Positions 1,670 through 26,402 of a stretch of 64,000 nucleotides of DNA are shown here, piece after piece. Numbering within the stretch: position 1 is the first letter of the stretch; every line of letters begins with the position of its first letter. Below the pieces are notes generated by a model that was given only the letters and a program-made list of their open reading frames with translations, was not told the DNA's origin and made no database searches. Source of the DNA: Antiquaquibacter soli (lineage in GTDB: Bacteria > Actinomycetota > Actinomycetes > Actinomycetales > Microbacteriaceae). A program made the position numbers and the translations under genes. The stretch lies in NCBI RefSeq assembly GCF_030580675.1, contig NZ_JAUQUB010000001.1:62001-126000 (forward strand), read 5' to 3'.

Positions 1670-3136
1670 CTAGCGGTCGAGCCCCGTCCACGACGAGAGA
1701 GTCTCGTAGCGCTCGCGCGCCGCGGCTGCCCAGCCCGAGCCGCGCGGGGCATCCCGCTCCACGACCGGCGGCGCCCACGCGTCGCGCACGGCAGCCACCG
1801 ATCCGCCCTCGAGCACGGCGGCGGCCTGGATCGCCGCTCCGCGCGCCGTCGCCTCGGGCACGTCGCGGATCACGACCTCGGAGCCGAGGACGTCGGCGAG
1901 CAGCTGCCGATAGGCAGGTGACTTCGCGCCGCCGCCCATCACGAGCACCTCCCCATCGGCCCCGGCCCCCGCCGCGCGGATGCGCTCGTGACCGCGCACG
2001 AGGCCGAACAGCACGCCCTCGAATGCCGCCGCGGCGAGCTCCTCGCGAGTCGTCTCGTTCGAGAGCCCGCCGAGGATGCCCACGCCGCCGGGTCGATTCG
2101 GCGAGCGCTCGCCGTCGAAGTACGCCGACAGCACTGGTCGGCCGGGCCGGTCGGGCGCGGCGAGGGCGAGCGCGGCGAGCTCGTCGAGGCCGACACCGAG
2201 GAGCCGGGCGACCGTGTCGGTGACCTTCGTCGCGTTGAGGGTGCAGACGAGCGGGAGATAGCCACCGGTCACGTTCGAGACCCCGTTGACGTCTCCGGAA
2301 TCGTCGAAGACGGGGTCGGGAGTGGGCGTCAGCACGACGCCCGAGGTTCCGAGGCTGTAGGCGACCTCGCCGTCGCGCATCCCCAGGCCCGCCGCTCCAG
2401 CATGCTGATCGCCCGCTCCCGGGCCGATCACGACGTCGTCGCGCACACCGAGTTCGGCTGCCGCCGCGGGGGAGATGGGACCCGCCGCCTCGTCCGGCCC
2501 GAGCACGGTCGGCACCACTGCGGCCCAGTCGACTCGGTCGGAGACGAAGCGATCGAGGAGGTCGGTGCGCCAGCGCGACTCGTGGCTCGCGTAGTAGCCC
2601 GTGCCCGAGGCATCCGAACGGTCCGTCACGTGACGGCCCGACAGCCGCCACGTCAGGTAGTCGTGCGGAACCATGACGCGAGCGAGCCGGTCGAGCAGCT
2701 GCGGCTCGTGCTCCTGAACCCACGCGAGCTTCGTGATCGTGAATGCCGCGAGCGGCACCGAGCCGACCGCGCGCGTCCACGCCGCGGTGCCGAGCTCGGC
2801 GATGAGTAGGTCGGACTGGGGAGCGGACGTCGTGTCGTTCCACAGCTTGACAGGACGCAGGGGATGACCCGAGCCGTCGAGCATCACGAGGCCGTGGCAC
2901 TGGGCGGCGACGCTGATCGCGTCGACCTCGCGCGCGTCGAGGGAGGCGTCGCGCAGCGCCGCGCCGAACGCCGAGCGCAGGGCATCCCACCAGCTCTCCG
3001 CGTCCTGCTCCGACACCGGCGGAGTGGTGCGGGGATGCGGGGCGCGGCCCGACCCGAGCAGGGCGCCGCTGTCCGCATCGCGGAGCTCGACCGTGCAGGA
3101 CTGGGTGGAACTGTCGACGCCAGCGACGACGGCCAT
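1670..3136 (-). CDS. FGGY-family pentulose kinase (xylulokinase-like)
   Basis: It would phosphorylate a ketose, most simply D-xylulose to D-xylulose 5-phosphate. The 488 residues match the family length. The N-terminal phosphate-binding motif is GVDSSTQS (6-13); WND is at 99-101; the sugar/catalytic loop GAGDQHAGAAG comes in mid-protein and MGGGAKSPAYRQLLAD in the second domain. ATG at 3136 is preceded by GAGGAG. It is the last gene of the minus-strand run after transporter and isomerase, 25 bases below the SIS gene, so it likely acts on the imported sugar or its isomer. Exact substrate is uncertain because FGGY kinases switch specificity easily; xylB is the nearest label. Confidence 0.85.
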   Translation of the reverse strand: MAVVAGVDSSTQSCTVELRDADSGALLGSGRAPHPRTTPPVSEQDAESWWDALRSAFGAALRDASLDAREVDAISVAAQCHGLVMLDGSGHPLRPVKLWNDTTSAPQSDLLIAELGTAAWTRAVGSVPLAAFTITKLAWVQEHEPQLLDRLARVMVPHDYLTWRLSGRHVTDRSDASGTGYYASHESRWRTDLLDRFVSDRVDWAAVVPTVLGPDEAAGPISPAAAAELGVRDDVVIGPGAGDQHAGAAGLGMRDGEVAYSLGTSGVVLTPTPDPVFDDSGDVNGVSNVTGGYLPLVCTLNATKVTDTVARLLGVGLDELAALALAAPDRPGRPVLSAYFDGERSPNRPGGVGILGGLSNETTREELAAAAFEGVLFGLVRGHERIRAAGAGADGEVLVMGGGAKSPAYRQLLADVLGSEVVIRDVPEATARGAAIQAAAVLEGGSVAAVRDAWAPPVVERDAPRGSGWAAAARERYETLSSWTGLDR

Positions 3137-3161
3137 CGGGTACTCCTCTATATGCGGCGGT

Positions 3162-3788
3162 CTAGAGCGTCGGCAGCGACGTCGGAAGCTCGGTGATCTT
3201 GCCGACCGCTCCCGCCGGGTGCGTCTCGAGCACCTGGTCCCAACCGTAGTTCTTGCGCCGCATGAGCACGTAGGCGAGCGCGTCGCCCCACACCGCGGTG
3301 ACGAGCGTCGACCCCATCGCGATGACGCCGCCGGGATCGCCCCCGCCCTCCGTCGTGAGCACGACCGTGAGGTCCGCGCCGCCGCCGAACGTCGAGGCCG
3401 GCTCGGCGGTGAGGGCGATGACGGGCATCCCGCGCTTCTGCGCGAGCACCATGAGGTCGTTGATCTCCGCGGTCTCCCCGCCGCGGGAGATGCCGATGAG
3501 CACGTCGTTGCCGGCGAAGGCGCCCATCGTGCCGTGGAGGGCATCCATGGGATGCACGAACACCGACGGCGTGCCGCTCACGGAGAGCAGATGCGCCATC
3601 CGCCGCGCGATCGCCCCCGAGGTTCCGGAGCCGACGACGAAGACCTTGCCGGTGCACGCCTCGAGCAGCTCGACCGCGCGGTCGAACGTCTCGTCGAGCT
3701 GGTCGGCGACGGCGAGCACCCCGGCGGCCTCGCGGCGGACGGCCTCGCGGGCGGCTTCGAGGGTCGACGGCGAGTCGCTCTCCGGCAT
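3162..3788 (-). CDS. SIS-domain sugar-phosphate isomerase
   Basis: SIS domains bind phosphosugars and interconvert aldose and ketose phosphates. The 208-residue protein has the characteristic VVGSGTSGAIARRMAHLL, then FVHPMDALHG and GISRGGETAEIN, as in arabinose-5-phosphate isomerases and 6-phospho-3-hexuloisomerases. It lacks the CBS tail of KdsD-type enzymes. I chose ATG 3788 (AAAGGA nine bases upstream). ATG 3803 is an alternative that would overlap the ATPase stop as TGATG and add MKGTP. Placed between transporter ATPase and kinase, it probably isomerises the imported sugar after phosphorylation. The substrate is unknown. Confidence 0.8.
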   Translation of the reverse strand: MPESDSPSTLEAAREAVRREAAGVLAVADQLDETFDRAVELLEACTGKVFVVGSGTSGAIARRMAHLLSVSGTPSVFVHPMDALHGTMGAFAGNDVLIGISRGGETAEINDLMVLAQKRGMPVIALTAEPASTFGGGADLTVVLTTEGGGDPGGVIAMGSTLVTAVWGDALAYVLMRRKNYGWDQVLETHPAGAVGKITELPTSLPTL

Positions 3789-22825: not shown

Positions 22826-23899
22826 CTACCGCGCGAGCTGCGCCACGATCGACACCGCCGTCGGCGTGATGTCGACGCGCGCCCGCGCGAACGCCGCGCC
22901 GAGCACGGCCCGGTAGGCGGGGGCCCGGAGACCCGAGGTGTCGAGCGCGGCGGAGAGCTCGATCGTGGCGGGCGGCCCGGGACGGGCCACGGCGCCCACG
23001 CTGTTCTCGATGAGCGAGTCATCCGCTCGCAGTTCCGCGATGATCGCGCCGAGCGCGCGACGCTGGTCGGCGGTGAGCGAATCGACGATGGTGCGGTCGC
23101 CCTCGAAGCGGTCCACCGCGTCGGAGAGCCACGAGCGGGAGGCATCCCGCAGCATCTGCTGGCGCAACCCCGCCGCGAGGCCGCGAGCGCGGGCCGCGTC
23201 GACGGGCGTGAGACTGTCCGCCTCGAGGAGGGACTCGAGGAAGGGGCCGACTCGGTAGTCGACGAAGTCCTGCCGCACGCGCTGCACCTCGACCGCGGCG
23301 GCGAGGTCCGATGGGGGGACCAGCTGGTGGTCGCGCTGCCACCGCGACAGTCGCGTGACGAGCACGCGGGAGAAGCCCGCGGTGCCGGCGCCGATGGCGA
23401 CGATCGGGGTGACCGCGCGGGTCACCTGCTGCGCGGCGTCCGCCGGCGCGAGAGCGCCGAGGTGCAGGAACGTAATGATGCCCACCCCGACCGCGACGAC
23501 GAACGAGACGATGAGCACCTCGCGGTAGGGCCGGAACGACCCGCTGAGGAACAGGATGATCGCGATGCAGACGGGCGCCCACGTGCCGGCCTGCGCGACC
23601 CCGTCGGGCCGGCTCGCGGCATCGAGCGCGGCGGCGAGGAGCAGTGTCGCGAAGACGAGCGCGTGCCGCACCGGACCGAACGGGAAGTACTGCGGGTCGG
23701 CGGCGATGATCGCCTGGATGAGGGCGCCCGTGAACACGATGAGCGCGGCGGACTGCAACGCGGCGGAGGAGATGTCGCCCTGATGGGCCCACAGCATCAG
23801 GGCGGCGACGACCGCGGTGACCACGCACGTCGCGAGCAGGAAGTACCGCGCGGTGAGCCCGCCGAGCGGGTCGAGCGTCTGAGGGGTCGGCCGGCTCAC
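22826..23899 (-). CDS. Membrane protein of unknown function coupled to a sensor kinase
   Basis: 357 residues. The first half has about five hydrophobic segments (for example YFLLATCVVTAVVAALMLWA and WAPVCIAIILFLSGSF). The second half is soluble and helical, with DFVDYRVGPFLESLLEADS and a Leu/Ala-rich C-terminal domain. I do not recognise a named domain. The GTG start at 23899 overlaps the kinase stop (GTGA), so the two are made together. It may be a modulator of the kinase or a second degenerate sensor-like protein: the layout (membrane half, helical linker, C-terminal domain) parallels the kinase, but no ATP-binding motifs are visible. Confidence 0.7.
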   Translation of the reverse strand: MSRPTPQTLDPLGGLTARYFLLATCVVTAVVAALMLWAHQGDISSAALQSAALIVFTGALIQAIIAADPQYFPFGPVRHALVFATLLLAAALDAASRPDGVAQAGTWAPVCIAIILFLSGSFRPYREVLIVSFVVAVGVGIITFLHLGALAPADAAQQVTRAVTPIVAIGAGTAGFSRVLVTRLSRWQRDHQLVPPSDLAAAVEVQRVRQDFVDYRVGPFLESLLEADSLTPVDAARARGLAAGLRQQMLRDASRSWLSDAVDRFEGDRTIVDSLTADQRRALGAIIAELRADDSLIENSVGAVARPGPPATIELSAALDTSGLRAPAYRAVLGAAFARARVDITPTAVSIVAQLAR

Positions 23900-25044
23900 G
23901 AGTCGCCCCCCTCGCCGAGCGGTACGGTGAGCAGCACCGAGGTGCCAGCGTCCGGGCTCGAGAGGATGCGGGCGGTGCCGCCGACCGCCTCGAGCGACCC
24001 GCGGATCGACTCGCGGAAGCCGAAGCGGTCCGCGGGGATGTCGGCCTCCGAGAAGCCGACGCCCTCGTCGACGACGGTGGCGACGACAGATGCCCCGCTC
24101 GCGATCAGCGAGAGCTCGGCCGACTCGACCCCGGCATGCTTGCGCACGTTCACGAGGGCCTGATCGATCGCCTGCAGGAGGGCGGCCCGCGGCGCCGCGT
24201 CCAGTGAGTCGAGCACCCCGGTCTCGCCCGTGACCTCCACGTGCAGGCCGAGCGCGCGCTCCCGCTCGAGCACCGCGTCGAGCGCGCGGCTCGGCCTCGA
24301 CACGTACGACTCGGCGTCATCGGGGCCGCGCACCGCCGCCAGGCTCTCGCGGATGCTCGCCCTCGCCGACTCGGACAGCGGCCCGGGCGGGCTCATCCCG
24401 AGGGCGACGAGGTCGCTCAGCACGGTGTCGTGGACGAGGGCTCGGGAGCGCAGCTCGAAGGCCCGGCGCTGCGAGGCGGCGAGGTCGGCGCGAGCCGCGG
24501 CATCCAGCCGGTCGGCGGCGGAGCGCCCGCGACGGCGGGTCTCGTTGAGGAAGCCGTAGTACACCGCGACCACGAGCGCGATGAGGGCGGGGGCGAGCTC
24601 GACCGCGTGACCGGGAGCGAGGGCGGTGAGCACTGCCTGGCCGACGAGGTAGGCGACGATCGTCCCGGCGGCGCCCGTCCAGCGATCGGCGATGCCGCCG
24701 AGCGCCGTGATGCCGACGAGCGCGGCGACCTTCGGGAACCACGTGGCCTCGTTCACGGAGAGGCCGAGCCCGAGCATCCCGACCGCGACGCCGCCGACCG
24801 CGATGACGGCGGCTCCGAACCACACCGCGAACCCTCGCCACACGCGCACGACGACGAGGAGGCCGATGAGGACGGCCGTTGCGGTCAGTCCGAGGACGGG
24901 GGCGGCGAGCCCCCCGAGTACGGCATTCGTCACGAGGGTCGAGGCTCCGCCGACCAGGAACACGACCGCGACCCAGAACGACGCGACCGCGAGACCGAAT
25001 CGTGTCGTCGCGGCGGCCTCCTCGGCCGGGTACACCCAGGTCAC
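23896..25044 (-). CDS. Sensor histidine kinase (orphan, HisKA_3-like)
   Basis: 382 residues: about six N-terminal membrane segments with little extracellular loop, a dimerisation helix with RALVHDTVLSDLVALG (H is the likely phosphoacceptor), and a HATPase_c domain with QAIDQALVNVRKHAG (N-box), DEGVGFSEADIP (G1) and SPDAGTSVLLTVPLG (G2). It resembles NarL-partner kinases. No response regulator gene lies on either side, which is odd for this class. GTG 25044 is weakly supported. It is coupled to the membrane protein at 22826. Confidence 0.8.
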   Translation of the reverse strand: MTWVYPAEEAAATTRFGLAVASFWVAVVFLVGGASTLVTNAVLGGLAAPVLGLTATAVLIGLLVVVRVWRGFAVWFGAAVIAVGGVAVGMLGLGLSVNEATWFPKVAALVGITALGGIADRWTGAAGTIVAYLVGQAVLTALAPGHAVELAPALIALVVAVYYGFLNETRRRGRSAADRLDAAARADLAASQRRAFELRSRALVHDTVLSDLVALGMSPPGPLSESARASIRESLAAVRGPDDAESYVSRPSRALDAVLERERALGLHVEVTGETGVLDSLDAAPRAALLQAIDQALVNVRKHAGVESAELSLIASGASVVATVVDEGVGFSEADIPADRFGFRESIRGSLEAVGGTARILSSPDAGTSVLLTVPLGEGGDS

Positions 25045-25081: not shown

Positions 25082-25163
25082 ACTCGCGCGGCGCCCCACC
25101 ACGAGCGCCGCGCGAGTGCCCTGCTCCCGGCGCTCGAGGCCCCACCACGAGCCTCGAGCGCCG
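25082..25163. repeat. Two tandem 13-bp hairpins with the same 10-nt loop
   Basis: Hairpin one has arms ACTCGCGCGGCGC (25082-25094) and GCGCCGCGCGAGT (25105-25117). Hairpin two has arms CGGCGCTCGAGGC (25128-25140) and GCCTCGAGCGCCG (25151-25163). Both are perfect, both enclose CCCACCACGA, and ten bases separate them. Arms differ while loops are identical. The pair fills the gap between the oxidase stop and the kinase start on the minus strand and probably terminates the oxidase transcript. Confidence 0.85.
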
Positions 25164-25169
25164 AGCCCG

Positions 25170-26402
25170 TCAACCCCTCGGGATGAGGCGCTGAAGCTGC
25201 GTGACGTGCTTCGGCTCGAGCTCCTCGACGGAGGAGACCTCGAGGAGCTTCATCGTGCGCACGATCTGGTCGGACAGGATCTGGATGGTGCGGTCGACTC
25301 CCGCGCGCCCGCCGGCCATGAGGCCGTAGAGGTACGCCCGGCCGATGAGGGTGAACTTCGCGCCGAGAGCGAGGGACGCCACGATGTCGGCACCGTTCAT
25401 GATGCCCGTGTCGACCCACACCTCCGTGTCCTTGCCGACCTCCTTGACAACCTGCGGGAGCAGGTGGAACGGGATCGGCGCGCGGTCGAGCTGGCGTCCG
25501 CCGTGGTTGGAGAGCAGGATGCCGTCGACCCCGAGATCGGCGAGCCGCTTCGAGTCCTCGACGTTCTGAACCCCCTTGATGACGATCTTGCCGGGCCACA
25601 TGCCGCGGATGACGCCCAAGTCGTCGAAGTTGATCGACGGGTCCATCGCCGAGTCGAGCAGTTCACCGACCGTGCCGCCGGTCGACGACAGCGACGCGAA
25701 CTCGAGCTTCGGCGTCGTCAGGAAGTCGAACCACCACCACGGCCTCGGGATCGCGTTGATGATCGTGCCGGCGGTGAGCTGCGGCGGGATCGAGAATCCG
25801 TTGCGCTTGTCGCGCAGTCGCGCTCCCGCGACGGGGGTGTCGACCGTGAACATGAGCGTGTCGAAGCCCGCGGCGGCGGCCCGCTCGACGAGCCCGTAGG
25901 AGATCTCGCGCTGCCGCATCACGTACAGCTGGAACCAGTTGCGCCCGGTCGGGTTGGCCGCCTTGACGTCTTCGATGCTCGTCGTGCCGAGCGTCGACAG
26001 GGTGAACGGGATGCCCGCCGCCCCCGCCGCCCCGGCCCCGGCGATCTCGCCCTCGGTCTGCATGAGCCGCGTGAACCCCGTCGGCGCGATGCCGAAGGGG
26101 AGCGCGGAAGTGCCGCCGAGCACGGTCGTCGTGGTGTCGACGGTCGAGACATCCCGCAGGATCGACGGGTGGAACTCGATGTCCTCGAACGCCTGGCGGG
26201 CGCGGGCGAGCGAGAGCTCTCCCTCGGCGGCTCCGTCGGTGTAGTCGAACGCCGCCTTCGGCGTGCGGCGCTTCGCGATGTCCTTGAGGTCGTAGATCGT
26301 GAGGGCGGCATCCAGCCGGCGCTTCTTCGCGTTGAGCGTCGGCTTCTTGAACTTCATGAGTTCGAAGAGCTCGACGGGGTTCGGGAGCCGTCGCTTAACC
26401 AT
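25170..26402 (-). CDS. lldD: FMN-dependent L-lactate dehydrogenase / alpha-hydroxyacid oxidase
   Basis: 410-residue FMN enzyme oxidising L-lactate (or a related L-2-hydroxy acid) to pyruvate at the membrane face. It has the family core: [73 protein letters not shown] and the active-site [10 protein letters not shown] with FMN-phosphate motif [15 protein letters not shown] 26402 lies inside the end of the regulator gene (8-base overlap). In the window, both rhamnose routes can end in L-lactate, so this enzyme would feed it to pyruvate. Confidence 0.9.

Follow-up and report, generated by a model that had tools for sequence, protein, structure and literature searches.

The two adjacent hairpins directly downstream of an lldD-like gene in Antiquaquibacter soli probably represent a tandem copy of a cis-acting RNA hairpin motif in the 3' untranslated regions (3' UTRs) of Microbacteriaceae, the loop of which would be read by a putative trans-acting factor. 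We assign this reading a probability of roughly 60%. The motif has the form of a 10-16 bp stem enclosing a loop of 8-11 nt with the consensus YYGUGGUGGK, and its distance from the preceding stop codon ranges from a few to about 50 nt, with the G-rich loop on the strand of the mRNA. Hairpins in bacterial 3' UTRs are usually regarded as generic terminators, the loops of which are unimportant. A loop that is constant across genera and genes, on stems that drift with compensation, provides a directly testable case, among actinobacteria, of a 3' RNA signal that is read out.

The hairpin pair downstream of lldD

The window, i.e. the whole stretch of 64,000 nt that was analysed, contains the following features, given in the direction of lldD transcription:

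25170..26402, minus strand: gene for an LldD-like FMN-dependent 2-hydroxy-acid (L-lactate) dehydrogenase (ORF; stop codon 25170-25172)
25128..25163, minus strand: hairpin 1, the first past the lldD stop on the sense strand, CGGCGCTCGAGGC-TCGTGGTGGG-GCCTCGAGCGCCG
25141..25150, minus strand: loop of hairpin 1, UCGUGGUGGG, with the conserved core GUGGUGG
25118..25127, minus strand: spacer of 10 nt separating the hairpins
25082..25117, minus strand: hairpin 2, ACTCGCGCGGCGC-TCGTGGTGGG-GCGCCGCGCGAGT
25095..25104, minus strand: loop of hairpin 2, UCGUGGUGGG, the same as that of hairpin 1
23896..25044, minus strand: gene for a sensor histidine kinase (MacS family by a weak NCBIfam match), not consistently found next to the hairpins

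The arms at 25082-25094/25105-25117 and those at 25128-25140/25151-25163 each form 13 bp with 100% complementarity, and both stems enclose the same 10-nt loop, which reads CCCACCACGA on the plus strand and UCGUGGUGGG in RNA from the minus strand. This is exactly what the sequence-only reading had described, namely twin 13-bp stems with different arms and the same 10-nt loop, ten bases apart. Its statement that the pair did not arise by recent duplication holds for the two window hairpins, the arms of which are unrelated, and it had also placed the pair correctly between lldD and the kinase gene: hairpin 1 follows the lldD stop codon after 6 nt and the kinase gene starts at 25044, 37 nt past hairpin 2. 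The best NCBIfam match of the LldD-like protein is the L-lactate dehydrogenase PRK11197, with an E value of 3e-87 that is accompanied by a score under the curated cut-off. The protein clearly belongs to the FMN-dependent L-lactate dehydrogenase family, for which the name LldD serves as a label. Orthologues in Microbacteriaceae share 75-91% identity, and the nearest named loci are those of Salinibacterium/Rhodoglobus (87-91%).

The decamer CCCACCACGA occurs in exactly two exact copies in the window, both of which are the hairpin loops. The genome contains 42 copies; among the 30 that were inspected, the two window copies have 13-bp stems and the remaining ones have stems of at most 2 bp. A first-order Markov model of the window yields 0.2 stems per 64 kb with a length of at least 13 bp and a loop of up to 14 nt. 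Moreover, folding of a 92-nt minus-strand stretch as RNA yielded -76.3 kcal/mol with a z score of -7.3. Both hairpins are also recognised by covariance models of the motif. Hairpin 1 scores 50.0 bits with model R1 and 43.8 bits with model R3 (E 1.6e-6), and hairpin 2 scores 50.5 bits (E 1e-7) with model R2, which was built without either window hairpin. A simple scan revealed neither a U-tract at the window hairpins nor a promoter-like site for a plus-strand transcript.

Stem covariation and loop conservation

The covariance analysis that the sequence-only reading had proposed was performed with a model of ten sites, which included neither of the window's lldD hairpins. In this alignment, 92% of the stem cells are paired and 12 of the 13 base pairs vary on both sides, giving a covariation score of 0.83 as compared to 0.22 for shuffled alignments and no more than 0.24 when the pairings were slid. 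An enlarged set of 31 sites yielded the same picture (95% paired; covariation 0.89 versus 0.19 shuffled). The loop follows the pattern [TCG][TC]GTGGTGG[GTC] in the 31 sites, with G-T-G-G in all of them and T-G-G next in 30, an invariance that is partly built in because the models and searches select for the loop. The core hardly varies across dozens of sites and the stems change with compensation, so that the comparative data fit well with selection on pairing as well as on the loop sequence, as the sequence-only reading had suggested. The recognised structure that it also proposed, with a protein or an RNA as reader, is putative.

The earlier reading left the relevant strand unstated. Among 87 distinct hairpins, the stem cells on the GUGG strand contain 48 G-U pairs versus 17 A-C mismatches, although the relatives are not independent and the set holds some non-members; in a smaller, model-fitted set the ratio is 12 to 5. 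The excess of G-U over A-C favours the GUGG strand as RNA. Together with the orientation of the genes, it points to the minus strand as the relevant RNA strand in the window, with the loop UCGUGGUGGG.

Association of the hairpin with lldD

Related genomes do carry hairpins with this loop, on the existence of which the sequence-only reading had staked its claim. In 12 of the 26 genomes of the same genus, the lldD stop codon is directly followed by a hairpin with a [CT]GTGGTGG core, and matches at E<=0.01 were found in all 26 genomes of the genus g75. The next gene beyond the lldD hairpin varies within the genus of A. soli: it encodes an MFS transporter in several genomes, the kinase in two and other products elsewhere. 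The hairpin thus travels with lldD, and since it accompanies lldD whichever gene comes next, the neighbouring kinase is probably irrelevant to the hairpins. Presence at lldD is patchy, at about half of the genus, and the hairpin must therefore be dispensable.

GTGGTGG is by far the commonest loop 7-mer in 118 lldD 3' regions, where it was found at 29 loci. Elsewhere in the family (Microbacterium, Agreia, Leifsonia) and in Actinomyces, most lldD genes have no strong 3' hairpin, or hairpins with unrelated loops. On the LldD tree the hairpin trait is clustered, with 13 changes as compared to 23.4 after shuffling and none of 500 shuffles as low, whereby the positives L083 and L141 were scored on the sequence GTGG[TC]GG alone. 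At least eight changes are forced on this tree, which indicates repeated gain or loss of the hairpin.

Two further observations were made at lldD genes. Three loci (L069, L118 and L274) have 3' hairpins with the related loops TCTGGTGGTAGGG, TCGTGGGGT and GCTGTGGCGGTA, which are possibly derived forms of the motif. Furthermore, a fragment of a second lldD gene with an in-frame TGA (G023:C1:273218-273543) is apparently a decaying copy.

Distribution in the Microbacteriaceae

A search of 398 genomes of the family with the third model (R3) identified 52 places at E<=0.001, distributed over 39 genomes from 17 of the 85 genera. Nineteen of these places lie directly 3' of lldD, as judged by blast or a shared C-terminus, in at least eight genera of Microbacteriaceae; about 0.02 would be expected if the places fell randomly on some 3000 genes. 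In g75, the sites follow a succinate-semialdehyde dehydrogenase (SSADH)-like gene in 24 genomes, lldD in about 17, a second aldehyde dehydrogenase (ALDH) gene in seven, an acyl-CoA oxidase (ACOX) gene in four and a permease-like gene in one. All of them are in sense orientation and mostly lie within 50 nt past the stop codon. The gene groups of g75 have wholly different stems (tccgccgccgggcg, gggccccgtcgcgagg, gcgggccggtcc and cgcgacgcgccgtcg) and a constant loop. For the SSADH sites, 24 distinct sequences from 24 species could be compared: arm identity is 0.90-0.93, loop-core identity is 1.00 and flank identity is 0.30-0.33, of which the loop value is partly a product of site choice and the flank value, which is near random identity, is not. 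Tandem twins like those of the window are also present 3' of SSADH in G385 and G802, and a short U/C-rich tail (UCUCUUC; TCTCTTC in DNA) is located beyond the hairpins of many relatives.

An automatic count of orientations (30 sense, 18 antisense, 20 both) is unreliable, as several genes in sense orientation were overlooked by the filter for genes, and sites of doubtful orientation were read individually. Matches inside coding frames (L218, L234, L224 and L260) were discarded. In the genome of A. soli, strong hairpins number about 44 per 464 kb, and their other loops are unrelated to GTGGTGG. From this density and the frequency of YGTGGTGG, it can be estimated that about 0.15 terminators per genome carry a GTGGTGG loop by chance. 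Matches found in a single genome were therefore not counted as members, and those next to genes for an FAH hydrolase, a proline racemase, a Zn-ADH, YebC, a beta-helix protein, a sugar-binding protein and an SDR were left out; such isolated matches may be chance terminators. A spread of the motif to other families of the order was also considered and rejected: the matches there are for the most part palindromic terminators of an ordinary kind and of greater length, which contain ccGTGGTgg or a similar sequence.

Other hairpins were encountered during the survey. In nine genomes of g59 (L225-L227, L231, L263-L266 and L271), a conserved hairpin ttcccgcggcggcg-CTGTGGTGGT-cgccgccgcgggag, which in some species shows compensatory changes, occupies a divergent gap. 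It is located 130-250 nt ahead of a gene that appears ATP-grasp-like by eye, and not at a 3' site; an NCBIfam search with the product of this gene gave no match. Moreover, the genome of A. soli contains two identical 47-nt palindromes, cactcatgagtaaagccccgc-CGCGT-gcggggctttactcatgagtg, at L189:2947-2993 and 3126-3172, 179 nt apart.

Proposed function and alternative explanations

The motif probably is a transcript-end or terminator hairpin with a loop that is read by a putative trans factor. Transcription of lldD-, SSADH-, ALDH- and ACOX-type genes would run through the hairpin, which would form or protect the 3' end of the message. The single-stranded GUGGUGG could then be contacted by a sequence-specific trans factor, either an RNA-binding protein or an RNA bearing CCACCAC, and this factor would control a few catabolic messages together, at the level of their stability or expression. 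The patchy presence at lldD, the missing U-tract at the window hairpins and the g59 hairpins outside 3' ends speak against this reading. More tentatively, the Microbacteriaceae may possess a post-transcriptional regulon in which GUGGUGG loops at message 3' ends are read by a protein or sRNA; the messages would be those for the oxidation of lactate, semialdehydes/aldehydes and acyl-CoA, and carbon catabolism would thereby be coordinated from the 3' UTR. Hairpins with the loops UCGUGGUGGG and CUGUGGUGGU are ready baits when compared with scrambled loops, and lldD, SSADH, ALDH and ACOX form the target set.

Two candidate partners of the loop were rejected. Pairing with the 5' region of lldD is no different between genes with the hairpin (mean duplex energy -14.3 kcal/mol) and those without it (-14.0 kcal/mol), and no special complement of the loop was found in the lldD 5' region. 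The 6C sRNA has loops of the type CCCCCC/ATTCCCCCCAAT, which do not match GUGGUGG well. Hairpins in the opposite orientation, with the loop CCACCACGG on the gene strand, were observed at L171:1500-1532, L297 (G064:C113:10398), L298 (G354:C14:66585) and, in the genome of A. soli, L299 (C1:1474773). Three of them are located directly past genes for ABC-transporter substrate-binding proteins. These loops, which show complementarity to GUGGUGG, may represent either partners or chance occurrences.

A cap that is kept for stability only would permit many loops, and yet one loop sits on unrelated stems of different genes within g75. Moreover, unrelated loops are found on the remaining strong hairpins of the genome and on most other lldD terminators of the family. 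These findings make it less likely than the reading above, though still plausible, that the hairpins are intrinsic terminators of the usual high-GC type that were inherited together with their genes, with a loop that is kept for capping or folding and read by nothing, even though the sites are just past stop codons and many have U/C-rich tails (TCTCTTC). Transcription can be terminated by clustered hairpins (PMC8355165), which agrees with the terminator explanation, and the chance terminators estimated above could account for the single-genome matches.

An element acting at the DNA level, be it a protein-bound cruciform or single-strand hairpin or a REP-like mobile palindrome, would account for strong palindromes, patchy presence and tandem copies. 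A perfect 19-bp stem with the loop TCGTGGTGGGC at L220:1493-1542 (G016:C2:229988), located within an apparently intact frame that is AlkA-like by eye, also speaks for it; this is an odd place for a palindrome, which is possibly an insertion. However, the recurrent sites are consistently sense and tightly spaced past stop codons, the G-U bias is confined to one strand, the stems of the copies are unrelated, unlike those of transposed repeats, and the genome of A. soli lacks multi-copy dispersal, so that a DNA element is quite improbable. The least probable explanation is a plus-strand small RNA, carrying two C-rich loops CCCACCACGA and pairing with G-rich targets: the twin hairpins with identical loops mimic the anatomy of 6C RNA and the genome has a 6C-like RNA with two CCCCCC loops elsewhere, but most relatives carry one hairpin instead of two, the motif keeps to lldD and SSADH 3' ends, the G-U bias favours the opposite strand, the simple scan detected no promoter-like site and the 6C loops are unlike CCCACCACGA.

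Comparison with known systems

Rfam 15 contains no family that matches the window at the gathering cut-off. In the open-access literature no description of such a motif was found, and a search for GUGGUGG hairpin loops led to eukaryotic miRNA papers only. The intrinsic terminators of high-GC actinobacteria resemble the motif in that a GC-rich hairpin is located near the 3' end of the gene, shortly past the stop codon, often with a U/C-rich tail. Unlike these terminators, the motif has a loop that is near invariant across genera and genes, and the window copies have no U-tract.

The 6C RNA (RF01066) is also an actinobacterial pair of hairpins with the same loop on different stems. However, it is a separate sRNA with loops of CCCCCC (runs of at least six C), and the hairpin region gave no match to RF01066 at E values up to 10, so that the window hairpins were not assigned to this family. 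A 6C-like RNA with two CCCCCC loops is present at G000:C1:459598-459671 (L254; 41 bits with RF01066, which is under the gathering score), and 6C-like loci exist in ten other members of the genus, among which L255 is devoid of the loops.

The targets of ANTAR proteins are dual stem-loops with hexanucleotide loops that contain A1 and G4 (PMC8164766). Like the window pair, they are actinobacterial twin hairpins with conserved loop residues, changing stems and a linker (2-25 nt), and being read by a protein is a feature of the ANTAR targets (PMC8164766). In contrast, the loops of the motif comprise 8-11 nt with no A in the core, and most sites have a single hairpin. Moreover, ANTAR targets are linked to the gene downstream or the gene containing them, whereas the motif follows its gene. 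An ANTAR-target RNA was rejected, as the window loop UCGUGGUGGG has 10 nt and a core without A.

REP/BIME palindromes occur in many dispersed copies with a shared stem, whereas the motif has few copies per genome and stems that are not shared. The hairpins bound by CsrA/RsmE have in common with the motif a G-rich sequence in the loop and several sites per regulon. They differ by the GGA in the loop, which is absent from the core GUGGUGG, and by their position at the ribosome-binding site instead of the 3' UTR, and a CsrA/Rsm target was rejected as well. The animal histone 3' stem-loop is a 3'-end hairpin that is bound by a dedicated protein and controls a set of genes; it serves as an analogy of working principle only, as organism, structural details and protein are unrelated to the motif. 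Filed under none of these kinds, the motif would, by analogy, function most like a 3'-end hairpin that is read by a factor.
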